Shown one piece after another: positions 10,253-23,290 of a DNA stretch of 64,000 bases (position 1 is the stretch's first letter; every line of letters begins with the position of its first letter). The position numbers were made by a program, and so were the translations under genes. The notes under the pieces were generated by a model. The model saw nothing but the letters and a program-made list of their open reading frames with translations, was not told the DNA's origin and searched no databases. The stretch is from Alphaproteobacteria bacterium (GTDB lineage: Bacteria > Pseudomonadota > Alphaproteobacteria > UBA8366 > GCA-2717185): contig JBBDQU010000053.1 of NCBI GenBank assembly GCA_040905865.1, forward strand, positions 1-64,000, given 5' to 3'.

Positions 10253-11860
10253 TTACTCCCGAACCCGGATTGTCAGCCACGGGGTCCAGACGTCGCCCTG
10301 GCCCGCGGGGCCGAGTCGCAGGCGGAATACGCCATACGGCACGATGTAGCGGTTCCAGTATTCCCGGCTGATCGGGCCGAAATCATGGGTCAGGCCGGTG
10401 ACAGCGATTTCACCTTCGAGAGCCAGGGCGCCTTCACCTGCACGGTACTGCATACGGTAATCGGCATTTTCCGGTCCGCGCCAGCGAAGCTGCAGCGGCG
10501 AGGGCAGGTCGGTATAGGATACGGACGCGCTGGATGGCGGGAATATCCATTGGGGTGGTTCAATTGCCGTACCATCGGTCGTGTTCGACTTGTTTGTCCG
10601 GGCAATCCGCAGCGCGACGATATCCGGCATAAGCGATTGCATCATGTCCCGGACGCGGCCGGGTTCCGCCGCCGCCAGATCGTTGCGTTCGCCGGGGTCA
10701 TTGGAGAGATCGTACAGCGACGTTCGGATAATCGTGGCGGGCGTTTCGAAGTCGACATGCAGTTTCCAGTCGCCCTCGACGCGCGCGGCGACAAAACGGG
10801 TGACACGATCCGGGTCCGGTTCAGCGAATCCGGCGCGGCTGGTAACTGCGTTCCATGCCCGTTTCTCCGGCAGGGAAAACATATCGCCTCCGTCGAGCGG
10901 CATCGGAGAGTCCCGCTGTAGCCGCGCCAGTATCGTCGGCATGATATCGAGATGGCTGGTTGGCGCGTCAATCACCCGGGGCGGGTCCGGCGAAACCGAC
11001 GGCGGAAGCCAGACGAAAAGCGGTACATGGGTAATTTCGTCATGCAGATGCCCGGTCCGCGTGGTCGATGCGTGGCCGACCGATCCGCGTTCGAGGAGTT
11101 CCTCGCCGTGGTCGGTTGTGACAATCAGGATCGTCCGGTCGCGTAATCCGCTGGCGTTGAAGAAGGTCCAGAATTCGCCAAACCAGGTATCGAAGGTTTT
11201 GAACTGCGCGCGGTAAAGCGGCTCGATCCAGCGAATGTCTTCGGGGGAAAACGCCACGGAATCATGCGGTATGGCGGGACTTTCCTGCACGATGGTCATA
11301 CGGGCGGCGGTCGCTGCATCACCGGGAGTCGCGACATCGGCGAAGGGCTCATAGGGCAGGTGGGTTTCCAGGTAATGATACCAGAGGAATAAGGGCCTGG
11401 ACGTGCGGGCTTCCGCGGCGAGCCAGGGGATCATCGCCGTTCCGGGCTCGACCTCCAGGCCCAGGTTCCGGAAACCGTCGATCAGCATGAAGGGCTGGAT
11501 GCCTGCCACGCGCCACCCGGCCTCGGCCAGCTGGTCGAGCGGGGTGTCCCAGGCAGCGGGAATCGACGAATCCCGGCTGTGTATGCCATGCCGAAACGCG
11601 GACAGGCCGGTCAGGATCGATACGATATTCGCGCCGGTCCATGCCGAAGCGGCGCGATGCCGGGTGAACCGGGTTCCCTGCTCCGCCGCCCGCCACAGGT
11701 TCGGGGTCGTTTCGGTGGAGAAAGCCGCGTAACGCGCACTTTCGACGGTCAGCACGACAACATGATAGCGCGCCGCCCTGTGCATTTCCCAAAGGGCCAC
11801 GGCAAGCCCGGCCGAAAGCGCAATCAGTGCGAGGCTAATGAAAACGGAGCGTCGGTACAT
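10253..11860 (-). CDS. Sulfatase-like / alkaline-phosphatase-superfamily hydrolase, membrane anchored
   Basis: A 535-residue protein with an N-terminal membrane helix (residues 5-25) and a periplasmic alkaline-phosphatase fold. Metal motifs are seen in VVLTVESAR near residue 37 (Glu where Asp is usual) and TTDHGEELLERGSVGH. The nucleophile region reads ASAWTGANIVSILTGLSAFRHG, so the CxPSR of true sulfatases is missing and a Thr or Ser may serve, as in phosphoglycerol or phosphoethanolamine transferases. The last ~100 residues form an added beta-rich domain. The gene overlaps the upstream VanZ-like gene by 26 bases (start at 11860). Likely acts on a surface polymer; substrate not readable. Confidence 0.7.
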   Translation of the reverse strand: MYRRSVFISLALIALSAGLAVALWEMHRAARYHVVVLTVESARYAAFSTETTPNLWRAAEQGTRFTRHRAASAWTGANIVSILTGLSAFRHGIHSRDSSIPAAWDTPLDQLAEAGWRVAGIQPFMLIDGFRNLGLEVEPGTAMIPWLAAEARTSRPLFLWYHYLETHLPYEPFADVATPGDAATAARMTIVQESPAIPHDSVAFSPEDIRWIEPLYRAQFKTFDTWFGEFWTFFNASGLRDRTILIVTTDHGEELLERGSVGHASTTRTGHLHDEITHVPLFVWLPPSVSPDPPRVIDAPTSHLDIMPTILARLQRDSPMPLDGGDMFSLPEKRAWNAVTSRAGFAEPDPDRVTRFVAARVEGDWKLHVDFETPATIIRTSLYDLSNDPGERNDLAAAEPGRVRDMMQSLMPDIVALRIARTNKSNTTDGTAIEPPQWIFPPSSASVSYTDLPSPLQLRWRGPENADYRMQYRAGEGALALEGEIAVTGLTHDFGPISREYWNRYIVPYGVFRLRLGPAGQGDVWTPWLTIRVRE

Positions 11861-12671
11861 GGCTTGCGAGCGGATACAGCAATAGGGAGAAAGCGGCAAA
11901 GGCGAAGACGCGGAAGGAAAGCGATCCGGCGAAACTGGCCGGCGCCAGCAGGGCGGTGCACAGACCGGCGGCGAGCAGGGGAAGTGCTGTCCAGGCGGGA
12001 ATGAACTGGTCGCGATACCCTTCGAGGGGCAGCACAAGGAGCCCGGCGCCAGCGACAATCGTCAGGATCGCGATGGTTCCCGACCGGTCCGGGTGCGCTG
12101 CCGAGGCGCCGGAAGGGTCCTTTCCCGGCGGCACAAAGGCGCCGGCAATCAGGGCGCCGGAAACGGCGCCAAGGATGTTGATGCCGATATCGCGAACGCC
12201 GAATGTCCGGTCCGGATGGAAGCCCTGCAGGAGTTCATCATGAATGCCGTAAAGCGTCCCCATGACAGCCGCGGCAAGGCACAGATAACGTCCGCGCGGA
12301 AGGTCGCGCGAAAGGGCACTATATAGGAGGAGAGCCAGAACCAGGTATTGCGCGACATGTATTCGCTTCGCCGGGAATTCGGGGTCGGTTGACAGCAGCG
12401 CCACAATTGCGACGGCCGCACCCAGGACAAAAAAGCGCCAATCGAAGACGGGTTTCCTGAATTTGGCGGCAAGGATGGATAGCAGGACAGCGGCGAGCGC
12501 CAGATAGGGCAGGTAGGCGGCCGTTTCGCGCCCGACCCACTGTCCAAGCCACGACCAGACGGCGAACGAACTCGCGTAGGCGGTAACCAGCGCCACGCAT
12601 AATAAATGCCATGCCAGCGCGGCGCGGCGGTGCGAAAAAAGCCCTTCTTCGCCGAATGTGAATCGGTCCAT
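11835..12671 (-). CDS. VanZ-like integral membrane protein
   Basis: A 278-residue protein with about eight hydrophobic helices. The VanZ-like signature appears in the middle: KRIHVAQYLVLALLLY, then GIHDELLQGFHPDRTFGVRDIGINILG (His-Asp-Glu, Gln, Arg, Asp, Asn), as in VanZ and phosphotransbutyrylase-linked families. The rest (C-terminal ~70 residues, three helices) is extra. VanZ-like proteins affect the cell surface and glycopeptide tolerance, but their chemistry is not settled. I chose the ATG at 12671 because the longer frame has Arg-rich non-family sequence. It is the first gene of a minus-strand run with the sulfatase-like gene (26-base overlap). Confidence 0.65.
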   Translation of the reverse strand: MDRFTFGEEGLFSHRRAALAWHLLCVALVTAYASSFAVWSWLGQWVGRETAAYLPYLALAAVLLSILAAKFRKPVFDWRFFVLGAAVAIVALLSTDPEFPAKRIHVAQYLVLALLLYSALSRDLPRGRYLCLAAAVMGTLYGIHDELLQGFHPDRTFGVRDIGINILGAVSGALIAGAFVPPGKDPSGASAAHPDRSGTIAILTIVAGAGLLVLPLEGYRDQFIPAWTALPLLAAGLCTALLAPASFAGSLSFRVFAFAAFSLLLYPLASHVPTLRFH

Positions 12672-12845
12672 GATGACGATATTCCTGAGCCGCCAACCGG
12701 CGCGACATGTCTTGCCGATGCGCGTCAGAATACAGGAAGGCGCCTGCATGGCGAAATGAAGTCGCGAGTGACCAGGATTACCGGAACCTTCTCCATATAC
12801 AATGGCGGTTGGCCGGCGATTAACGGCAGGTGTGACTAAGGCGCA

Positions 12846-13823
12846 ATGACAGCATCCAACAATCCGCCACGCTCCCGGCGCAATACGAAACTTCGGACCG
12901 GACTTACGATTGTTTCGATCATCGTTGTTGGCGCCGGCATTGGCTGGGCTGCGGCAAAGTACCTGACCTCCCCGGGACTTGAACCGGAATCCGCCGCGCT
13001 TGTGCTGCCCCGGCGTGAAGCCGTTGTTCCCGCGGTTCCGGCGGACATGGCGGCGAAAGAAGATGCGGGCGCCTCAAAGCAGCCGGAACAGGCCCCCGCT
13101 GTAATGCTCGTCGGCTCCTACGGACAGGAGCAATCCTACCCGATTGATGAATGGACGCTGGGGACGGCGCCGTCAGGATTTATTGACAGCGCCAGTGTGA
13201 ACGGGCGAGCGCTTGGGCCGGAGGCGGGCATGCCGCCGCTGCGGGGCCGTGATGTTCTGGAACTCTCCGGATGGGCGGGCGATGTTTCGATCGGATTGCG
13301 GTATCCGTATGTTCTGATCAGCGCCTGTGGCCGGATCCTGGCGCATGCCGCCGTGAACCTGCAACGCCCGGACGTCGCGAACGCCGTGCATGAAAACCTC
13401 CGCCTCTCGGGCTGGCGGGTGACGATTGCCGCCGCGCATCTGCCGCAATGCAAGGGCGGGGCGCTGCGCGCCTGGGGTGTTGCTCCGGGAGATCGAAAGC
13501 TGCTTCTCCCGCTGAACCGGCATGTCGCCCTGAGTGACACGGCGATTGAGCTGGACAGGGACGCGCGATTCGCTGCGGCCGAACCGCCGCTGCACGCTGC
13601 CGATATGCCGCCGATTGCACCCGTTATCCTGAATGTCCGGGCAAAAGTCCTGAACATGCGGCGCTGCGCCAAGGCTGAATGCGCCGTTACCGGCCAGTTG
13701 GCCCAGGGAACGTGGAACGTTCTGGAACTCGGCGGGACCGTGGATTGGATGCTTGTCGCGCTGCCGGGGCGCGCGGGCTGGATTTCCAGGCAAGACGCGG
13801 AAATCACCCAAAATCAGCGATAG
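12846..13823 (+). CDS. Anchored protein with C-terminal SH3-like domain
   Basis: A 325-residue protein: a basic N-terminus, one membrane segment (residues 18-38), a Pro/Ala-rich linker to about residue 90, and a central beta-rich domain with conserved-looking Cys at about residues 158 and 199. The last 60 residues look like a bacterial SH3 domain (VLNMRRCAKAECAVTGQL, then WMLVALPGRAGWIS). Such domains bind peptidoglycan or peptides, so it is probably a periplasmic, membrane-tethered envelope protein. It is divergent from the VanZ-like operon (about 170 bases between) and its stop overlaps the next, convergent gene by ten bases. No family name recognised for the central part. Confidence 0.6.
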   Translation: MTASNNPPRSRRNTKLRTGLTIVSIIVVGAGIGWAAAKYLTSPGLEPESAALVLPRREAVVPAVPADMAAKEDAGASKQPEQAPAVMLVGSYGQEQSYPIDEWTLGTAPSGFIDSASVNGRALGPEAGMPPLRGRDVLELSGWAGDVSIGLRYPYVLISACGRILAHAAVNLQRPDVANAVHENLRLSGWRVTIAAAHLPQCKGGALRAWGVAPGDRKLLLPLNRHVALSDTAIELDRDARFAAAEPPLHAADMPPIAPVILNVRAKVLNMRRCAKAECAVTGQLAQGTWNVLELGGTVDWMLVALPGRAGWISRQDAEITQNQR

Positions 13824-14680
13824 ACGTAGCCGCGCAGCAGCGCCGCCCATTTTTCCGTCCAGCAGCAATCGTGGTCCGCACCCGGCACGTTTATGACAGT
13901 AATGCGGGAAGTGTCGCCCGACCGGTCGAGGAACGACCCGGAAATGGCGGCCGGCACCACATCGTCATCGCTACCGACGAAATGTACCTGGGGAATGGCA
14001 GATACTGCCTGCGCCACATCGACAGCATCCAGTGACCCGAATAGCGGCGTATCGCGATGCAGCCTTGTCCAGGCGCCGTGATCCAGGTTGCCGGCAACCG
14101 TGACGACGCGCGTGACATCACGGCGCTGCCCGGCGACAAGGACGGCCAGGTTGCCGCCGCCGGAGTAGCCGAAAAGGGAAATTTGCCGCGCGCCGGATTC
14201 ACGCTTGGCCTGGTCAATCGCCGCATTGAGCGAGTCGACGACTTCCGGCGCATACCGGTGGGATGTCCAGTACGCAGGGTCGCAGCGCGTCAGTTCCGCC
14301 TGCGTCGCGTACTGGCAGGGACGCGCGAGATAGAGCCGGTTGGGGGTAGGGTCCTGAACGGCCAGTTGCAGGGTCAACGGTGTATCGGGGGTCGGGTCGC
14401 TGGACCGGATACTGCGGGAGACCCAGGCAACGCCATCTCCTTCGATATAAACGGCCAGGTCGGGCTGGTTTTTGTTATAGGCCGGATGGAAGGTCCTGAG
14501 CACAAACTGGCCGGCGACAATTTGTGCCGGTCGCCAGCCGTGATCATTCGCGACCGCCATGGCCCGTTCCTCGCGGCTTTGCAGAAGAGCAACCGAGTTG
14601 CAGGCGTTGAGGGAAAGCAGGAGCCCGACGCAAAGTAAAAGGGCTGCCGAATTCACGACAGCCCTAATCCTGTTACGCAT
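13814..14680 (-). CDS. Alpha/beta-hydrolase lipoprotein
   Basis: A 288-residue lipoprotein. The signal peptide ends in the lipobox LNAC near residue 27. The catalytic nucleophile sits in the elbow GYSGGG (Ser near residue 172). An Asp in the GSDDDVVP segment and the His in GADHDCCW complete a plausible triad. It is probably a periplasmic serine hydrolase or esterase of the AB_hydrolase type. The paired Cys (CDPAYW; DCCW) may form disulfides. The gene follows the autotransporter gene on the same strand with 13 bases between, suggesting co-transcription. Confidence 0.7.
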   Translation of the reverse strand: MRNRIRAVVNSAALLLCVGLLLSLNACNSVALLQSREERAMAVANDHGWRPAQIVAGQFVLRTFHPAYNKNQPDLAVYIEGDGVAWVSRSIRSSDPTPDTPLTLQLAVQDPTPNRLYLARPCQYATQAELTRCDPAYWTSHRYAPEVVDSLNAAIDQAKRESGARQISLFGYSGGGNLAVLVAGQRRDVTRVVTVAGNLDHGAWTRLHRDTPLFGSLDAVDVAQAVSAIPQVHFVGSDDDVVPAAISGSFLDRSGDTSRITVINVPGADHDCCWTEKWAALLRGYVYR

Positions 14681-14693
14681 CTTGCGAAGGTGA

Positions 14694-15758
14694 CTAGAAC
14701 TTTACGCGTACCCGGCCGCTGACGGAGTAGAGACTCAAGTCGTCGCGACCTTCGGTGGAGGTTGCGGTAAGCGTGCCGCTGACCGAGTCGGAGATGTCGA
14801 AATTCACGCCACCGCCGACCACGTAGCCGGTCGTATCTTCAGACGGGCTGGCTAGGCCGCCGCCGAGCACCGGCGTGCTGGGCGCCCAGAACTCGTGCTG
14901 GACCTGTGCCGTCAGGAAGGGCTGAACCTTGCCGAAGTCGTAACCGACAGTGCCGCCGAGCCGTCCCTGGCCGATCGAAATATCGTTTTCGCCAACGAAG
15001 GTCCCGTTGGATTCGGTGTAGGAATCCTGACTTTCATTGATGTAGAGGAAGCCGACCGAACCGTTCATGAACACCTTGTTAACCGAGTGGCCGATGTTCA
15101 GGTTACCGCCGGCGGTATAGCGCCGGGCGTCGAACTGGCCGGTCACCGTGCCGTTCGTGCGGGTCGTGTCCGTATCAAGCCGGGTGTAGCTGCCGTTGAC
15201 GTCCGCGGAAATATTTTTGGTCAGCTTGAACACCGCGTACGGCGCCACGCCAACACCTGACGTTTCGATTGTACCTGTATTGAAGGTCGTGTCGATGTCG
15301 ACATCTTCGTAGCTCAGCGCGACACCGGCAACGACCCGCTCCGTCAGGCGATAATCCACACCGCCGACAAATGCGGCAACGTCACCATCGAACGCGGTAT
15401 TGATGAAATCGTTTTCGATATCGGAGTAACTGCCAAGCAGCCAGACGCCCATTTTCTTTTCGCCGGCGCCTGCGGACCGCCCGCGATTGCCGCCTTCGAA
15501 ATAGCGCGTGACCGGCAGAGCGGATGTTGACGTGCCAGACGGGCCGAAAAGTCCGCCGCCGCCAGCATCACCTGTGAAGCCGCCGCCGCCGATGCCGGAT
15601 GCCAGCGTCGACGCGACCTGCGACGTTACCTGCTGGCTGATCTGGGCGCCGACAACCTCGCCTGCCGGTTCGTCATACTGCGCGGATGCCGAAAAGGCTG
15701 ACGCAGCCAGTATCGCAATGCCCAAAGCCGTTCTTTTGAAAAGCTGCGTAACCGTCAT
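14694..15758 (-). CDS. Autotransporter-type outer-membrane beta-barrel protein without passenger
   Basis: A 354-residue protein with a cleaved signal peptide (ends ASAQ near residue 26) and a short Gly/Ser-rich stretch. From about residue 100 to the end is an autotransporter beta-domain with alternating amphipathic strands (MGVWLLGSYSDIEND, VGGVDYRLTERVVAGVALSYE, VAPYAVFKLTKNISADVNGSYT) and the C-terminal aromatic RVRVKF recognised by the BAM machinery. The usual long secreted passenger is absent, so it may be a stand-alone barrel like those of small surface proteins. Composition is slightly less GC-rich and more Thr/Asn-rich than its neighbours, normal for barrels. It leads a two-gene transcript with the hydrolase lipoprotein. 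Confidence 0.8.
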   Translation of the reverse strand: MTVTQLFKRTALGIAILAASAFSASAQYDEPAGEVVGAQISQQVTSQVASTLASGIGGGGFTGDAGGGGLFGPSGTSTSALPVTRYFEGGNRGRSAGAGEKKMGVWLLGSYSDIENDFINTAFDGDVAAFVGGVDYRLTERVVAGVALSYEDVDIDTTFNTGTIETSGVGVAPYAVFKLTKNISADVNGSYTRLDTDTTRTNGTVTGQFDARRYTAGGNLNIGHSVNKVFMNGSVGFLYINESQDSYTESNGTFVGENDISIGQGRLGGTVGYDFGKVQPFLTAQVQHEFWAPSTPVLGGGLASPSEDTTGYVVGGGVNFDISDSVSGTLTATSTEGRDDLSLYSVSGRVRVKF

Positions 15759-16074
15759 CGTGCTGCGTCCTTCAAATACCGATACTTCACAAATTGAGAT
15801 GCTTCATTGATGTAACCTAAGGCGCGGGCGACGCATCTTATCCGGATATTTGACATCAACCGTTTAACAAGTCCCTAAAACACATCAATGACGAAGGCAG
15901 AAAATTGCCGAACGTAGGAATTTTTAACAAATGTCTCCGACCCTGAGAAGCGCTTTTCGCCTATTGAAGGGCGTTTTCGCTGCATGGAATACCCGTTTAA
16001 TTGCCGGTGTGATAATTCTGCAACGTCACGGATTGTTTACATCGGACTATGGCATATCCAGACCTGGGTCTGAC
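15759..16074. other. Intergenic region, AT-richer, promoter side of the autotransporter gene
   Basis: 316 bases without a gene. It contains the upstream region of the minus-strand autotransporter gene and the end of the O-antigen ligase gene. TTGACA occurs at 15850-15855 on the plus strand but has no matching -10 box at the right distance. AT-rich stretches are present but I see no RNA gene or clear operator. Confidence 0.5.
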
Positions 16075-18117
16075 CTAGCGACGCCTGACCGACGCTGCCT
16101 CTGACAGAATTCTCGACTTGATTTCAGGCGGAATGCGGAACCATTTTTCAATGCCGTTTTTCAGGCCGGAATCAAGCAGTAACAATGACTTGATTCTATT
16201 TTCCGGATTCCCCTGCTGATGGAGGGCCAGTCCTTTGAACCACAAGGCGATGGCGTTTTCGGGGTCCCGCGCGAGGACCGTATCGGTTAATGCGAATATT
16301 GTAGAATACTGGTTTCGCGCGAGGCTCCATGACAAGTAGGGATAAAGTAGATCCGACCGTTCCGGTTCCAGCGGTAAAAAGATAGCGACCTGTTCTTCCC
16401 AGTCTTCCAGATAACCGGCGAATCGCTCGCGATACGGTGCAAATTTCTCGTTGAATGCCAGTTGCGAGCGGAACAGAAGGCCGGCGCGCAACAGGCCGCG
16501 GGATCCGTTCCGCGCGCCACGAATGGTTGCGGCGCATGTCAGGTGGTCTAACCGGTCAATATCAGACGGCTGGAGGTTCCGCGCCGCTGGCGGCGCGACA
16601 ATCAGGTCGTACGACCGTAAAAACTGCAGTGTCAGACCGCTATCGCCGCGCCAGGCGTCGGAAGGGAATAAGTCGCAATCGCGCCGTTCCGTATCCCTGG
16701 CATCATGCGCCGCCTGGTATGGCATCGTTCTGTCGAATCGAAAGGATCGCCACGAAAAATCCGCCAGCAACACCGCGGCGCCTATCTGCGCGGACGCGAT
16801 GGCCCCCAGACTGACGACAGTAATCGCAGGGAAAAGGCGACCGGCCATTTCCGGACGCGCGGGGCCTGTCAGCAACGCCACCGCCAGTACCGATACCGGA
16901 ATGGTTCCGGGCATCTGGAACCAGAAGGAGACGATACAGACATATCCGATAGCGTAGGCGGTCGCCACGTGCAGGTGCTCCTTGCGGCAGACCAGCGGCA
17001 GCACGGCGCTATAGACCACGACGCCGACCGCACCCGGCAAGCCGGCGGATAACAGCGCTTCCAGCACCAGATTATGGCTGTGAAACGTGTCGCGCCAGAC
17101 AGCATCCCAGCTTCTGTCCCAGAGGATGGCGCTGCTTGTCGCGAGGGATTCGCCGAAATACTGCTGCGAATGTCCCCATCCCTTTCCATGCAGGAGTACG
17201 GCAGGATTGCGCTCTATAAAGTTGTAGAAAACGTCATTGATCAGCGCCCGCGACCGGATGGATTGCATGAATCCAAGTGATCCGAGCCAGCTGATGCAGA
17301 ACGGCGCGGCGCAGGCGACCGCGGCGGTGAACGCGGCGGCGAGACGTCGAACCGCGCCCGTCCGTACTGCGTTGCCGGGTCGTAATGTCAGATACACCAG
17401 GGCGCCGGCCGGGCCGCTTAACGCCAGGAGGACGAGGATTGCGGTATAATTCTGCGATACCGCAATGGCGGGCAGACCCGCGACCATTGCCAGCACGATC
17501 CGCGCCCGTGTTTTCGGAAACCGGTGCGCGAGGGCAACCGGTACGGCGACGGCGGCGGCGATTCCCAGGAACGCGAGATAATCGGTGAACCATATGGCGC
17601 GGGAAGCCGGAAACGCCGCGAGTCCGGGCAGGACCACCGCCGCTGCAAGTGTCGCCAGGCCGAGAATTTCGGTGATGCGGGCCGATTGCCTGACGAATCG
17701 GACCCCTGCGATAAAGACCGCTGTATCGAGCCATAACAGCGCGCCGTCCGCGAGCTGCGGCGAGCCGACAATCGACAGCAGAGGATACCGTGCCATGGGA
17801 GACACAGCGATGCTCCAGGCCGCGATCGCCAGCGCGATCAGGACAATCGGATGCCGGATGCTCGCCAGGGCGCGAGACGGCGTCCGCGCCGCCGCGGTTC
17901 CCAGCCCGATGGCGCAGAGAACCGCACCGCAATGAAGAAGAATGATGGTCGGTTCTACCCTGGGCCAAACGCCCAGTGACCAGGGCAGGTGCGCGGCAAA
18001 GGGCGATAACAGGGCAATCAGGATCCCGGCGGCCGTCATCCGGCACGCCATGGCGTGCGCCGGTTCGGCAGGAAATTCAGCGTCGCCCCGGGAATCCGCT
18101 CTGGTCAGTGTCGACAT
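16075..18117 (-). CDS. O-antigen ligase (WaaL/Wzy_C family) with C-terminal extension
   Basis: A 680-residue inner-membrane protein with about twelve hydrophobic helices in the first 430 residues. The periplasmic loop contains FHSHNLVLEALLSAGLPGAVG (about residues 340-360), the O-antigen ligase / polymerase signature with its conserved His. The family joins O-antigen or other glycan from undecaprenyl carrier to lipid A-core, or polymerises it. The final ~230 residues form a soluble, likely periplasmic, helical region (tetratricopeptide-like WFKGLALHQQGNPENR near the end), longer than in usual WaaL. It faces away from the divergent glycosyltransferase gene (18287), so both may share the region between. 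The start at 18117 is one of several in-frame ATGs. Confidence 0.75.
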   Translation of the reverse strand: MSTLTRADSRGDAEFPAEPAHAMACRMTAAGILIALLSPFAAHLPWSLGVWPRVEPTIILLHCGAVLCAIGLGTAAARTPSRALASIRHPIVLIALAIAAWSIAVSPMARYPLLSIVGSPQLADGALLWLDTAVFIAGVRFVRQSARITEILGLATLAAAVVLPGLAAFPASRAIWFTDYLAFLGIAAAVAVPVALAHRFPKTRARIVLAMVAGLPAIAVSQNYTAILVLLALSGPAGALVYLTLRPGNAVRTGAVRRLAAAFTAAVACAAPFCISWLGSLGFMQSIRSRALINDVFYNFIERNPAVLLHGKGWGHSQQYFGESLATSSAILWDRSWDAVWRDTFHSHNLVLEALLSAGLPGAVGVVVYSAVLPLVCRKEHLHVATAYAIGYVCIVSFWFQMPGTIPVSVLAVALLTGPARPEMAGRLFPAITVVSLGAIASAQIGAAVLLADFSWRSFRFDRTMPYQAAHDARDTERRDCDLFPSDAWRGDSGLTLQFLRSYDLIVAPPAARNLQPSDIDRLDHLTCAATIRGARNGSRGLLRAGLLFRSQLAFNEKFAPYRERFAGYLEDWEEQVAIFLPLEPERSDLLYPYLSWSLARNQYSTIFALTDTVLARDPENAIALWFKGLALHQQGNPENRIKSLLLLDSGLKNGIEKWFRIPPEIKSRILSEAASVRRR

Positions 18118-18286
18118 CCTGCGCGTTTCATTCAGTGCTCCTGTTGACGGCGCGCCGCATCGCTAATTCGCAAATCGGGCATCTGCAATTGTATTACCTT
18201 ATTTTCCGGACGATTTCGTGCAGGTACTTTATGCTTCGTCCGATTCGTCTCTAAACGGGTCGCAGGAAGCGCCGAGACGGTTTGCC

Positions 18287-19321
18287 ATGGGTAATGTTGT
18301 GAAACAAGGTTCGGGAAATCCAGCGGCGAAGTCCCGGCAAGGTGCATCCAGGGACGACGTAACGTCTGTCATCGTCGTGAATTTCAATGCCGGGCAATAT
18401 CTCTGCGCTGCGGTGGAAAGCGTCCTCGCCCAGGAGACGCCGGTCGAAATCATTGTGGTCGATAATCGTTCGACCGATGGCAGTGTGGAAAACCTGACGG
18501 CGCAGATTGTCGACCGACGCCTGCATGTCATACGCCTGGAACGGAATTTCGGTTTCGCGCATGCGTGCAATGCCGGTATTGCGAAGGCAACGGGATCAAC
18601 CTTTCTGATGTTCAATCCCGATTGCCGGATGGCGCATGGCGCCCTGCAGACCCTCAGGCTGGCGCTGTCCGCCGGCGACAAGCTGGGCATGGCCGGCCCC
18701 CTGCTGGTCAACCCGGATGGGACGGAGCAGCGCGGCGGCCGGCGCGACATACCCAATCCATGGCAGATTTTCTGCATGACGCTTCAGCTTCACCGGCTGA
18801 TGCCGAATCATCCGCGCTTTCGCAGTATCAATCAGCATGACCAGCCGATTCCGGATCAGCCGGTGTCGGTGCAGGCGATTTCGGGCGCGTGTATGCTGGT
18901 AAAGCGTTCCGCCGTCGAAAAGGTCGGGACGCTGGACCGGGCATTCTTCATGCATTTCGAGGACCTCGACTGGTGCCTGCGGTTTTCGCAGGCGGGATTC
19001 GGTATCGTATTCGTGCCGCAGGCCGTGGTCGAACACACGCAGGGTGTCTGCAGCCGGGGACGGGTCCGGCGGGTTGCGTATCACAAGCACCGGTCGCTTC
19101 TGACTTTCCTCGACAAGCATTTTACGCAATTCTATCCGACGCTGTTCATGGCGCTGGTTTCCTGCGCGGTGACGATACGATTCTTTCTGGTCGCCCTGAC
19201 GTCCCTGTTCAATACCCGGACGCTGACCCGCGATCCCTGGGACAGTCCGGTGCGATTGTCCGGCACGCCGGGTGAGAAACGGGACGGCAGGAAACCCGGG
19301 GAACGGGAATCGGTTCAGTGA
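18287..19321 (+). CDS. Family 2 glycosyltransferase (rhamnosyltransferase-like)
   Basis: A 344-residue GT-A fold enzyme. TSVIVVNFNAGQYL opens the domain; IIVVDNRSTDGSVE and LERNFGFAHACNAGI are the nucleotide-binding motifs; the FNPDCRM segment has the DxD-like Asp near residue 115. DLDWCLRFSQAGF and the late HKHRS are typical of GT2 enzymes that build O-antigen. A hydrophobic stretch near the end (FMALVSCAVTIRFFLVAL) may bind the membrane. Start: the frame opens upstream at a GTG (18218), but the ATG at 18287 gives a family-like beginning. Its TGA overlaps the GTG start of the next gene (GTGA), so the two are translationally coupled. Confidence 0.8.
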   Translation: MGNVVKQGSGNPAAKSRQGASRDDVTSVIVVNFNAGQYLCAAVESVLAQETPVEIIVVDNRSTDGSVENLTAQIVDRRLHVIRLERNFGFAHACNAGIAKATGSTFLMFNPDCRMAHGALQTLRLALSAGDKLGMAGPLLVNPDGTEQRGGRRDIPNPWQIFCMTLQLHRLMPNHPRFRSINQHDQPIPDQPVSVQAISGACMLVKRSAVEKVGTLDRAFFMHFEDLDWCLRFSQAGFGIVFVPQAVVEHTQGVCSRGRVRRVAYHKHRSLLTFLDKHFTQFYPTLFMALVSCAVTIRFFLVALTSLFNTRTLTRDPWDSPVRLSGTPGEKRDGRKPGERESVQ

Positions 19322-21618
19322 ATGCGACAGACGGAATGTCCGCGATCGTTCGTCGCCTTGCCCGCATCGCCACAGCTGCGATTATTGCCAAATACCGGTT
19401 GCGCAGCGGCCGCGGCTTGCTGTTCCTGATCGCCGCGATATTCGATCCCTATCTCTACGCCCTTACGGTTTACTTCGTGCTGGCCACCGTCTTCAAACTG
19501 GATTCAGTCGAACGCTTCCATATCCTTCTCATCGGATTCATGGCGTTTCGCTGGGGCATGTCGTCGCTCCTTGCCTCGGCGAACCTGATCGGGATATTGC
19601 GCCGGATGGTGGAGCATTCGACGACCCCGCTGGCCGCCGCCGTCGTCGCCGTCACGGCGCCGCCGGCTTTTGTCTTCTTTCTCGCCGTGACCAGCGCGTT
19701 TGTGTTTTCGCTGTTGATGGATTTGCCGCAGCAGTCGCTCGACGCGGCCGGCTGGCTGTTTTTCGTCGTTGCCATTCAGGCGGTATGGACTGTCGCGCTG
19801 ATCCTGATTCTCGCCTTCCTCAGGGAACGGCGCGTTCTGTCCAGCGATATGCCGGTTGTCGCGGCGGCGAGCCTGCTGTGGATATTGTCGCCGGTCATGT
19901 ATACCTTCCGCGATATTCCCGAAGGCGCCAGCAAACTGCTGACAAGTTACAATCCGGTATCGCACCTGCTGGCCGCCTACCAGAATGCCTATTGGTACGG
20001 CCAGAATATCAGCCTGGAGGTTCTGCCCGTACTGACGGCAGTTGGCGTTGGACTGATCTGGGTTCTGGGCCGGTTTGCGTTTGAGGGCGTGCGCGCTGTG
20101 CCGCGCCTGAACACCGCGTCGGCGCCGGCCGGCGGGGTTCACCTTGTTTACGTCGCCGGCGGACGGGGCCCGGCGCCGCCAGCACCGCCCTCCGGCGGGC
20201 ACCCGTGCGTTTACACGCCGTGGCGGGCCCGTTTCACGGATTTGAAAGGCCGTGACATGGTGAGGTTGCTGGTCGCGAACTGGGACGGGACACGGGCAGA
20301 GCGTCGGCGGAGCATCGAACAAATTGCGGAAGTCAGCGCAACGGGACGGTTGTTCGACGACTTTCTGGCAATTTATCCCGATCAGGCGCTCGACCAGCTT
20401 GCCTTTGCCGTGGCGATACAGTCGCCGCGGCCCACCGTCGTGCTGGATGGTCTGTTCGATACCCTGCCGACATCGTTCCTCGCAACGGCCTGGCAGCAGG
20501 TCCGGCAGGCGGCGGACCGGGGCCGCGCCATGACGGTCATATGCTACCGGCGGCCTTCGGTCCCCGAAACCCTTGAAGGCACGTTCGAAGTACAGGCGAC
20601 TGGCATGGACACGCAGCATGGCGATATCGGCCCGGCGCTGCCCCATGCGCTTGACCTTGCCGAAAGGGCGGAAAGCCGGGGGGACGCGATAGAACCCGTC
20701 GCGGCGACCGGCGATCCGCAAGTTCCTCTACCCTTTACCAGCGTGCTGGTTACGGGCGGGAGCAGCCAGATCGGCCGGTGCGTCTTGCGGCGTCTTGCCG
20801 TGGCGGGTGTTTCGGCCTTCGCCGTCGGCCGGAATATACCGCCGGGTCTCCCCGCCGACCGTTTTATCCGGGGCGATCTTACGGAGAAATCGCTGGCATT
20901 TCCCGACCGGCTGGATGCCGTGGTCCATATTGCCGGGCTCTGGTACCTGCCCGGGCATATCGACGCGCTGTATGACAGCGGCGTGCGGCGAATCGTTTGC
21001 TTCAGCACGACGTCGATTTTCGTCAAGCAGCATTCGTCCGATGCCGGCGAGCGCGACCTGGTCGTCCGCATGGTCAATGCGGAGGCAAGCGTTACGGCGC
21101 GTTGCGCCGAACTGGGAATCGCCTGCACGATATTGCGTCCGACCCTTGTCTACGGCTTGGGGATAGACCGCAATATCAGCCGGGCGGCCGCTTTTATCCG
21201 GCGATTCCGGTTCTATCCGTTGGCCGGCGAGGCGACGGGACTGCGCCAACCGGTACATGCGGACGATCTGGCTGCCGCCGCGCTGGCCGTGCTCAACGCC
21301 CCCGCGGCCGCCGGAAAATGCTATGAAGTCGGCGGCGGCGAGCGATTGGTCTACAGGGAAATGATCGGGCGATTGTTCGATGTCATGGGAATGCCGCGCC
21401 GTTTCGTGCCGATTCCGTTCCTGGGGCTTTTCGCGGCGCTGGCCGGATTTGTGCTGCGCCGTCCCGAGGTGACCGGTGAAATGGTGCAGCGCATGCGCCG
21501 GGATCTCGTGTGCGACAATGGCCCCGCGATCCGGGATTTCGGCTACGATCCCCGGCCGTTTCTGTCCGCGGGATCTGCCGACCTGCCGAATCTCGGAGAC
21601 GCGCCGTTGACACCGTAA
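19318..21618 (+). CDS. Fusion: ABC-2 permease, degenerate ABC ATPase-like domain, epimerase-like (SDR) domain
   Basis: A 766-residue single frame with three parts. Residues ~1-265: polysaccharide-export ABC-2 permease with about six helices and the tell-tale SPVMYTFRDIPEG plus NPVSHLLAAYQNAYW. Residues ~285-435: an ATPase-like region that aligns with the C-terminal half of Wzt-type domains (LAFAVAIQSPRPTVVLDGLFDTL), but has no Walker A, YPDQA where YSSGM is expected, DG instead of DE in Walker B, and CY in place of the SH switch. Residues ~474-750: an NAD-dependent epimerase-like fold (TGGSSQIG, GDLTEK, LRPTLVYGLGIDRNIS, LRQPVHADD) that lacks the YxxxK pair and one glycine of TGxxGxIG. It is coupled to the GT2 gene (GTGA) and followed by gmd 23 bases on. 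The fused order and the degenerate motifs make this protein unusual. Which partner ATPase it uses is unknown. Confidence 0.75.
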   Translation: MNATDGMSAIVRRLARIATAAIIAKYRLRSGRGLLFLIAAIFDPYLYALTVYFVLATVFKLDSVERFHILLIGFMAFRWGMSSLLASANLIGILRRMVEHSTTPLAAAVVAVTAPPAFVFFLAVTSAFVFSLLMDLPQQSLDAAGWLFFVVAIQAVWTVALILILAFLRERRVLSSDMPVVAAASLLWILSPVMYTFRDIPEGASKLLTSYNPVSHLLAAYQNAYWYGQNISLEVLPVLTAVGVGLIWVLGRFAFEGVRAVPRLNTASAPAGGVHLVYVAGGRGPAPPAPPSGGHPCVYTPWRARFTDLKGRDMVRLLVANWDGTRAERRRSIEQIAEVSATGRLFDDFLAIYPDQALDQLAFAVAIQSPRPTVVLDGLFDTLPTSFLATAWQQVRQAADRGRAMTVICYRRPSVPETLEGTFEVQATGMDTQHGDIGPALPHALDLAERAESRGDAIEPVAATGDPQVPLPFTSVLVTGGSSQIGRCVLRRLAVAGVSAFAVGRNIPPGLPADRFIRGDLTEKSLAFPDRLDAVVHIAGLWYLPGHIDALYDSGVRRIVCFSTTSIFVKQHSSDAGERDLVVRMVNAEASVTARCAELGIACTILRPTLVYGLGIDRNISRAAAFIRRFRFYPLAGEATGLRQPVHADDLAAAALAVLNAPAAAGKCYEVGGGERLVYREMIGRLFDVMGMPRRFVPIPFLGLFAALAGFVLRRPEVTGEMVQRMRRDLVCDNGPAIRDFGYDPRPFLSAGSADLPNLGDAPLTP

Positions 21619-21641: not shown

Positions 21642-22709
21642 ATGACGGATAAAGTAGCATTGATTACGGGCGTTACCGGTCAGGATGGCGCCAGTCTGGC
21701 GGAGTTGCTTCTCGCCAAGGGCTATACGGTACACGGCATCAAACGGCGCTCGTCGTCGTTCAATTCCGAACGGGTCGAACATTTGTATGAAGACCCGCAT
21801 GAAGCGGATGTGCGGTTCTTCCTGCATTACGGCGACATGACGGATGCCACCAACCTGATCCGGATCGTGCAGCAGGTGCAGCCGGACGAAATCTATAACC
21901 TTGCCGCGCAGAGCCATGTGCAGGTCAGTTTCGAGACGCCCGAATACACAGCCAATGCGGACGGTTTGGGTCCCCTGCGGCTTCTGGAAGCCATCCGGAT
22001 CCTGGATATGAAGGACAGGGTGCGGTTCTACCAGGCATCGACTTCGGAACTCTTCGGCAACGCACCGGCGCCGCAGAATGAGGCGACGCCGTTCCACCCG
22101 CGCAGCCCCTACGGCGCCGCCAAGCTCTACGCCTACTGGATTACGGTCAATTACCGTGAAGCCTACGGTTTCCATGCATCCAACGGAATCCTGTTCAATC
22201 ATGAAGGGCCGGTGCGGGGCGAAACATTCGTGACCCGGAAAATCACCCGGGCCGTGGCGGCCATGGAGGCCGGTGTCCAGGAAAAGCTGTTTCTGGGCAA
22301 TCTGGATGCACGGCGCGACTGGGGCCATGCGCGTGACTATGTCGAAGGGATGTGGCGCATGCTGCAACAGGAAGTCGCGGACGATTACGTTATCGCGACC
22401 GGCGAATCCCACACGGTCCGGGAATTCGTGGAAGCGGCATTCCGGATGACCGGCGTGGAAATTGAGTGGCGCGGCACGGGCGTGGACGAAACCGGCGTCG
22501 ATGCGGCGACAGGGACCGTCCGGGTGCAGATCGATCCCCGCTATTTCCGGCCGACGGAAGTGGATTGCCTGATCGGCGACGCCAGCAAGGCGGAACGGAT
22601 CCTGGGGTGGCGCGCAACGACCGGGTTCGATGAACTGGTCGCCGATATGGTCCGCGCCGACCGCGCGATATTCGCTTCCGGACAGATGCAGATACGGTAT
22701 TCCGCATGA
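21642..22709 (+). CDS. gmd: GDP-mannose 4,6-dehydratase
   Basis: A 355-residue SDR enzyme that converts GDP-mannose to GDP-4-keto-6-deoxymannose, the precursor of GDP-fucose, GDP-rhamnose and perosamine. The motif [12 protein letters not shown] is at the start, with [14 protein letters not shown], the [18 protein letters not shown] segment, STSELFG (catalytic Thr/Ser-Glu region), YGAAK (Tyr-xxx-Lys) and [13 protein letters not shown]. Length is typical (about 345-370). One local change: NHEGPVRGE where NHESPRRGE is usual. Its stop overlaps the start of gmhA (ATGA). The context (O-antigen ligase, GT2, permease fusion) supports a role in surface-polysaccharide sugar supply. Confidence 0.92.
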
Positions 22710-23290
22710 TCGATTCCGCCGCCTATTTCGATGCGGAGTTCGATGAACATGCCGCGGTCGCCGCCGCGACCCGGCGCACTCTGTCGGCGCCGTTTGCCCG
22801 GATGCTCGACATCTGGGTTGCGTCGATTGAAACCGGCAACAAGATCGTTTTCTTCGGCAATGGCGGCAGTGCCGGCGATGCGCAGCACCTCGCGACCGAA
22901 CTGACGGTCCGCTACAGGAAGGACCGGCCGCCGATTGCCGCAATTGCGTTGACGACCGACACGTCGGCATTGACCGCAATCGGCAACGATCTTGGTTTCG
23001 AACAATTGTTCGCGCGCCAGATCGCCGCTCTTTGCCGGCAGGGCGACGTTGCCGTTGCCATATCCACTTCCGGCGCCAGCCCGAACATCATTGCCGCTTT
23101 AAAGGAAGCGCGGCGGCTGGGCGTCGTGACAACGGCACTGGGCGGCAAGGGCGGCGGCGACATGGTCGGGCTGGCCGATCCGATACTCATCGTGCCGTCC
23201 GATAACACGGCGCGAATTCAGGAAATGCATATAACGCTGGGGCAGATGCTCTGCGGCGCGCTGGAACTGCGGCTCGGGCTTGTTACCTGA
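22706..23290 (+). CDS. gmhA: Phosphoheptose isomerase (sedoheptulose 7-phosphate isomerase)
   Basis: A 194-residue cytosolic SIS-domain protein. It isomerises sedoheptulose 7-phosphate to D-glycero-D-manno-heptose 7-phosphate, the first step of ADP-heptose or GDP-heptose synthesis for lipopolysaccharide or S-layer glycans. The phosphate-binding motifs [18 protein letters not shown] and ISTSGASPN are intact, as is the catalytic-site His in [11 protein letters not shown] near the end. Length is typical. It overlaps gmd by four bases (ATGA), showing translational coupling. It ends 22 bases from the convergent map gene. Confidence 0.88.

Follow-up and report, generated by a model that had tools for sequence, protein, structure and literature searches.

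Domain Architecture of the Fused Reading Frame

The window analyzed here is a 64,000-nucleotide stretch of an alphaproteobacterial genome (GenBank assembly GCA_040905865.1, contig JBBDQU010000053.1, positions 1 to 64,000). At 19318–21618 on its forward strand lies an open reading frame (ORF) in which a permease of the ATP-binding cassette (ABC) exporter type, a Wzt-like pseudo-nucleotide-binding domain (pseudo-NBD), and an atypical short-chain dehydrogenase/reductase (SDR) are joined. The frame is uninterrupted over 766 codons, and its GTG start overlaps by 4 bp the stop end of the gene at 18218–19321, which encodes a family 2 glycosyltransferase (GT2). An earlier account made from the letters alone (hereafter the sequence-only reading) had described a single intact three-part frame, and the three domains are indeed recognizable within it. 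Related genomes are referred to below by handles of the form G009. The fused ORF comprises the following features.

19318–21618, + strand: fused ORF, 766 amino acids, ABC-2 permease plus pseudo-NBD plus atypical SDR, read from the ORF; fusion also in G009/L012, G010, G008, and G006
19318–20091, + strand: Wzm-like ABC-2 permease domain, residues 1–258, by fold match; keeps the re-entrant-helix motifs SPVMY..DIP and NP..H
20110–20682, + strand: Wzt-like pseudo-NBD, residues 265–455, by sequence profile and fold
20155–20205, + strand: low-confidence loop, residues 280–296, at the place of the Walker A P-loop and helix of a working NBD, by model and alignment
20374–20409, + strand: former signature segment YPDQALDQLAFA, residues 353–364, aligned to YSSGMxxRLAFA of Wzt
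20434–20451, + strand: Walker B-like strand hhhhDG, residues 373–378; Asp mostly kept, catalytic Glu replaced by Gly
20545–20547, + strand: Tyr410 at the switch-His position, by alignment; His only in G010
20740–21588, + strand: atypical SDR domain, residues 475–757; Pfam Epimerase, E = 2e-14; best Foldseek matches SimC7 and SwaQ2
20752–20775, + strand: SDR cofactor motif TGGSSQIG (TGxxSxxG); the whole branch has Ser for the middle Gly
21058–21072, + strand: LVVRM, residues 581–585, at the YxxxK position, as we place it against GalE- and SimC7-type motifs

The sole Pfam match of the fused ORF is the C-terminal SDR (Epimerase, E = 2e-14), and NCBIfam returned SDR matches only, every one far under its cut-off; the unit of permease and pseudo-NBD matched no model in either database. 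Of the three Pfam families that the sequence-only reading had named for the protein, the epimerase was thus recovered, whereas the permease and ATPase models found no match. Comparison of the window with G009 gives ratios of nonsynonymous to synonymous substitution rates (dN/dS) of 0.16 for the permease, 0.19 for the pseudo-NBD core, and 0.13 for the SDR, as against 0.59 for the linker; values from other genome pairs agree, with synonymous sites near saturation in those pairs. Purifying selection acts on the cores of all three domains, and the expectation that the frame is maintained is borne out by these ratios and by retention of the fusion in relatives. Homologs of the fused protein were aligned in two rounds, with five and later ten sequences. 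A structural model of the whole protein from five sequences was poor (predicted local distance difference test score, pLDDT, of 61), and a model of residues 1–469 from ten sequences was good (pLDDT 78, predicted template modeling score 0.80). Our confidence is very high both in this architecture and in the ATPase motif losses described below.

Fold of the Permease Domain

Residues 9–261 of the model align with Wzm (6m96_B) at a Z score of 20.4 over 244 of 256 residues and 3.5 Å (VIA-align). The next-best fold matches are TarG, KpsM, and mycobacterial Wzm, and matches to Wzm, KpsM, and TarG range from Z 17 to 20. In the model of residues 1–469 the ABC-2 fold extends across the full length of the permease. 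The re-entrant-helix motifs SP..Y..DIP...S...T..NP..H are invariant in ten aligned relatives. Pfam PF01061 gave no match at E 10 for five members of the family and none for P0011 and P0012, and a permease profile searched against Protein Data Bank (PDB) sequences found no relative; comparison of the permease and middle alignments with one Wzm and one Wzt sequence by hhalign was uninformative, with too few sequences. The domain is thus assigned to the Wzm/KpsM-type ABC-2 permeases by its fold.

The Middle Domain Is a Wzt-Derived Pseudo-NBD

Pfam found no match in the middle domain. A profile built from five such domains, searched against 177,635 PDB sequences, placed Aquifex aeolicus Wzt chains at the top (E = 0.0019), with TagH at E = 0.42, and when 385 and 398 genomes were scanned, most of the leading matches from outside the family proved to be Wzt genes, with E values as low as 9e-8 and 5e-11. 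Compared with ABC ATPases, residues 265–455 of the model match LptB (Z 15.2), TagH (Z 14.8), and Wzt (Z 14.1), so that the superposition on Wzm and Wzt suggested by the sequence-only reading supports both assignments. The pseudo-NBD aligns with LptB from about LptB residue 22 onward, and a loop replaces the P-loop helix: residues 284–294 are modeled without a helix, at pLDDT below 50, where that helix is expected. By the profile search and the genome scans, the middle domain descends from Wzt. Its description as a degenerate Wzt ATPase therefore stands, but the claim that only a C-terminal half was kept does not, as nearly the whole domain is represented.

Nine family members were aligned with five Wzt/KpsT sequences for a comparison of motifs. 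Walker A (GxxxxGK[ST]) is absent from all nine. The signature YSSGMxxR has become YPDQALDQ or a variant of it, and in Walker B the Asp is mostly retained and the catalytic Glu is replaced by Gly in most members and by Arg in G338. The losses of Walker A, the YSSGM signature, the Walker B Glu, and the switch His that had been read from one sequence are thus confirmed across the family, except that G010 has the His. With P-loop, signature, and catalytic Glu lost and Tyr in place of the switch His, we would not expect the middle domain to hydrolyze ATP, a view that leans on the established chemistry of NBDs.

Within the former signature helix, Asp359 (D[QR]L; window positions 20392–20394) is nearly invariant in the pseudo-NBD family and is not a Wzt residue. 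It is possibly a new contact site.

An Atypical SDR Domain

The Epimerase match of the SDR (PF01370) scores 54 bits against a cut-off of 20.9. By sequence the domain is also near the complex I subunit NDUFA9, and Foldseek placed SimC7 first for the SDR part, with SwaQ2 also among the best matches. The SDR has LVVRM in place of YxxxK and Ser for the middle Gly of its NAD motif, in agreement with the losses previously noted. Stand-alone homologs, which are 58–65% identical in the sister genus (g2) and 41% identical on a Pseudomonas aeruginosa plasmid, likewise lack YxxxK and carry Ser for the middle Gly of TGxxGxxG. Because they share these losses, the missing YxxxK is a trait of the whole branch and not decay; the sequence-only reading had allowed for this, and its label "degenerate" is better replaced by "atypical". 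In SimC7, Ser-Ile-His replaces the catalytic triad, yet the protein is an active ketoreductase (PMC5039031), and by this analogy the SDR domain may well be catalytic. In all three genera it adjoins gmd, a position that fits a role in making sugar nucleotides better than one in sensing. The other SDRs of this genome retrieved with a Gmd query and read by eye are of the RmlB, UDP-xylose/UDP-glucuronate, and epimerase types, with no Rmd or Fcl among them.

Distribution and Order of Events

The three-part fusion occurs in G009 (whose contig appears to be the one in L012, a metagenome-assembled genome), G010, and G008, which belong to the same genus (62–82% identity), and in G006 of another genus (46% identity), where a contig end splits the gene; the three-part order is hence found in three congeners and one other genus. 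A permease with a pseudo-NBD and without the SDR, 430–470 amino acids long, is encoded in G421, G352, G338, G440, and G425, which represent three other families of the class (the G352 gene is cut at a contig end). In the sister genus the SDR is a separate gene before gmd and gmhA, without a permease. The likely order is that permease and pseudo-NBD form the older unit and that fusion of the SDR is younger and confined to one family, since the SDR stands as a separate gene next to gmd–gmhA in the sister genus. The unit is rare, being carried by four of 385 sampled genomes of the class, this genome counted, and is unevenly spread within genera; no further family member turned up among 398 genomes sampled across the phylum. 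Searches of plasmids gave SDR and gmd matches only, and we found no description of such a fusion or of a pseudo-Wzt in the literature collection searched, which is incomplete. The two-domain unit is probably annotated as hypothetical wherever it is present, because neither Pfam nor NCBIfam has a model for it.

Gene Neighborhood

The fused gene lies between the following genes of the window.

10253–12058, − strand: sulfatase-superfamily protein (PF00884, E = 7.5e-23)
11835–12749, − strand: VanZ-like membrane protein (PF04892, E = 2e-8)
12846–13823, + strand: SH3-like membrane-anchored protein (weak SH3 match)
13814–14680, − strand: alpha/beta hydrolase-like protein (PF12146, E = 8e-6, just below cut-off)
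14694–15758, − strand: autotransporter-type beta-barrel (PF03797, E = 1e-29)
16075–18117, − strand: putative membrane protein of the O-antigen-ligase type, so named by inference, with TPR at its C terminus (TPR_16 only, below cut-off)
18218–19321, + strand: GT2 glycosyltransferase, 4-bp overlap with the fusion start (Pfam Glycos_transf_2, E = 7e-25); partner in nearly all relatives
21642–22709, + strand: gmd, GDP-mannose 4,6-dehydratase (TIGR01472, 584 bits against a cut-off of 415)
22706–23290, + strand: gmhA-like SIS-domain isomerase (SIS_2, E = 1.5e-23)

Comparison by tblastn revealed a module of eight genes, encoding the sulfatase-superfamily, VanZ-like, SH3-like, hydrolase, barrel, ligase-like, and GT2 proteins and the permease–pseudo-NBD, which in the window spans 10253–19321 plus the permease–pseudo-NBD. 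The two-domain gene of G421, G352, G338, and G440 sits within most or all of this module, as does the SDR-bearing gene of G006 and of the window, and G425 has the part that fits on its short contig, so that the module extends to at least four families of the class. The ligase-like gene keeps its syntenic place in G006 and in four genomes from other families, and the two-domain protein almost always adjoins a GT2 gene. The module apparently represents an undescribed envelope-glycan system. Directly behind the SDR, gmd is found in every SDR-bearing genome of the family. In the sister genus, which has no permease at the SDR site, the GT2 gene and most of the module are gone from that place as well. 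Given the co-occurrence with the module and this joint loss, the two-domain unit probably belongs functionally to the module and the SDR to the gmd–gmhA operon behind it.

Two further arrangements were seen at these sites. In G001:C3 of the sister genus (L020, 8301–13988), a hydrolase gene and MBOAT-type genes adjoin the SDR instead of GT2 and permease, so that one glycan machinery has been swapped for another at this position. In G421 (L072, 10276–11319), a second GT2 gene follows the two-domain gene, and the GT2 ortholog sits at another position of the module.

Comparison with Known Transporters and SDRs

The closest parallel is the Wzm–Wzt exporter of A. aeolicus (6m96, 7k2t, 8dne), which shares the whole permease fold and, in the ATPase, the helical part, signature helix, Walker B, and later strands. 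The fused protein differs in being a single chain, in lacking the P-loop, SSGM, and catalytic Glu, in having Tyr for the switch His, in its shortened ATPase, and in its added SDR. KpsM–KpsT and TarG–TarH, also ABC-2 exporters of lipid-linked polymers, are alike in permease fold (Z 19–20) but have working ATPases of their own on separate chains. The order of permease then NBD in one polypeptide is that of ABCA1, ABCA4, and ABCA7, with joint alignments of 411–436 residues; the ABCA proteins, however, are active, two-halved, eukaryotic among the matches seen, and about 10% identical to the fused ORF. SimC7, SwaQ2, and NDUFA9 have the extended SDR fold in common with the C-terminal domain, and SimC7 also lacks the YxxxK pair, whereas the substrate of SimC7-type SDRs is unrelated and the SDR described here forms part of a membrane protein and has gmd as a neighboring gene. 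In a polysaccharide locus on a P. aeruginosa plasmid (NZ_CP083368), the 41% identical SDR follows a GT2 gene near a nucleoside-diphosphate-sugar epimerase/dehydratase gene, but as a separate protein without a permease.

Intact Wzm/Wzt Pairs

Neither the window nor the related loci that we read contain a Wzt gene adjoining the permease; G425 has a C-terminal fragment of a Wzt-type gene some 2 kb from the two-domain gene. PF01061 has two matches in this genome. The first is an intact Wzm on contig C36 with its own Wzt alongside, which answers the suggestion of the sequence-only reading to look for a stand-alone wzt elsewhere in the genome; the other, below cut-off, falls in SecD/SecF-like sequence at a contig end. 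KpsM/Wzm and Wzt pairs are also present in G338, G440, and G421. A Wzt of the C36 type was not found at E 1e-32 in G008, G009, G010, G006, and G352, whose assemblies are 64–90% complete, an absence that is suggestive only.

Proposed Function and Alternative Explanations

We posit that the permease half would be an exporter-derived membrane component that works without ATP hydrolysis. The permease–pseudo-NBD would either move the lipid-linked sugar of GT2 across the inner membrane without ATP or hold GT2 and the ligase-like protein together, a role that we propose because the module showed no other gene of the flippase type; a Wzx-type flippase was not noticed on reading the module genes, which did not include a systematic search for one. 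The SDR would serve as a 4-ketoreductase for the keto-sugar nucleotide produced by the adjacent Gmd, and in this family the activated deoxysugar would be completed at the membrane beside its transferase. Taken jointly, the lack of ATP use, the handling of the GT2 product, and the ketoreductase role are plausible, although we place the combination a little short of probable. That a polysaccharide ABC exporter became an ATP-independent flippase in a GT2-based module, with one family also gaining a sugar-nucleotide reductase, is a possible but doubtful history. Several observations weigh against this proposal: sequence similarity between the permease and Wzm is very low and its ancestry depends on the predicted fold, the whole-protein model from five sequences is weak in the SDR part, a Gmd query may overlook a distant Rmd or Fcl, and an intact Wzm/Wzt pair, present in this genome and, within about 30 kb of the two-domain gene, in G338 and G421, might cooperate with the fusion or work through it.

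ABC exporters are defined by ATP-driven transport. An exporter-type permease tied to an NBD that would be unable to use ATP in the known way may offer a natural case for what the permease fold does by itself, be it passive flipping, gating, or scaffolding, and the fused SDR may be a further case of sugar-nucleotide synthesis coupled to a membrane glycan machine.

The intact pairs could also mean that the protein is still an exporter permease driven by ATP, which would borrow a Wzt from another locus and use its pseudo-NBD only as a lid or regulator, and the pairs on C36 and in G338, G440, and G421, together with the fragment 2 kb away in G425, agree with this. However, the intact ATPase has its own permease alongside, no C36-type Wzt was detected at E 1e-32 in five relatives with incomplete assemblies, and the pseudo-NBD would occupy the docking place of an NBD, the model aligning to ABCA-type units as one body of more than 400 residues. 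We consider such borrowing unlikely, and with it the permease needing an external ATPase that had been suggested from the sequence is not favored. A heterodimer with an intact Wzm/Wzt half was rejected, since each composite ATP site would be short of a P-loop or a signature. A non-transporting scaffold or regulator, in which an ABC-derived platform holds GT2 and the ligase-like protein in place and, in family f1, also the SDR, would account for the loss of ATP motifs while the permease and a new conserved DQL/DRL patch of the former signature remain, and for the tight linkage to GT2; yet the re-entrant SP...DIP...NP..H elements, which belong to the translocation lane, show some of the strongest conservation, as would fit a lane still in use, and we regard a pure scaffold as rather unlikely.

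The fusion of a cofactor-binding domain without YxxxK to a transporter might instead suggest that the SDR senses a sugar nucleotide or NAD(P) state and gates the permease. This seems improbable given that the YxxxK loss is branch-wide, including stand-alone copies beside gmd and in the Pseudomonas polysaccharide locus, and that the two-domain form is retained without the SDR in three other families. Finally, the many lost motifs and the state of several genomes, which are fragmented and incomplete and in one case named as a metagenome assembly, might be taken to indicate a decaying gene or an assembly artifact, including the merger of separate genes by a frameshift or assembly error that the sequence-only reading had raised. 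The same fusion recurs in several independent assemblies and two genera, and purifying selection acts on the three domain cores; together these rule out assembly error and decay, to which we give next to no weight.

Other Sugar Genes of the Genome

The C36 locus (L029, 1–8490) encodes, besides Wzm and Wzt, an HldE-like bifunctional enzyme, two SDRs, a transaldolase-like protein, a GmhB-like HAD protein, and a glycosyltransferase. Together with gmhA and gmd of the window, it suggests heptose or 6-deoxyheptose in a surface glycan. RmlA- and RmlB-like genes are adjacent on contig C65 (L116), and this genome may thus also have a pathway of the dTDP-rhamnose type.

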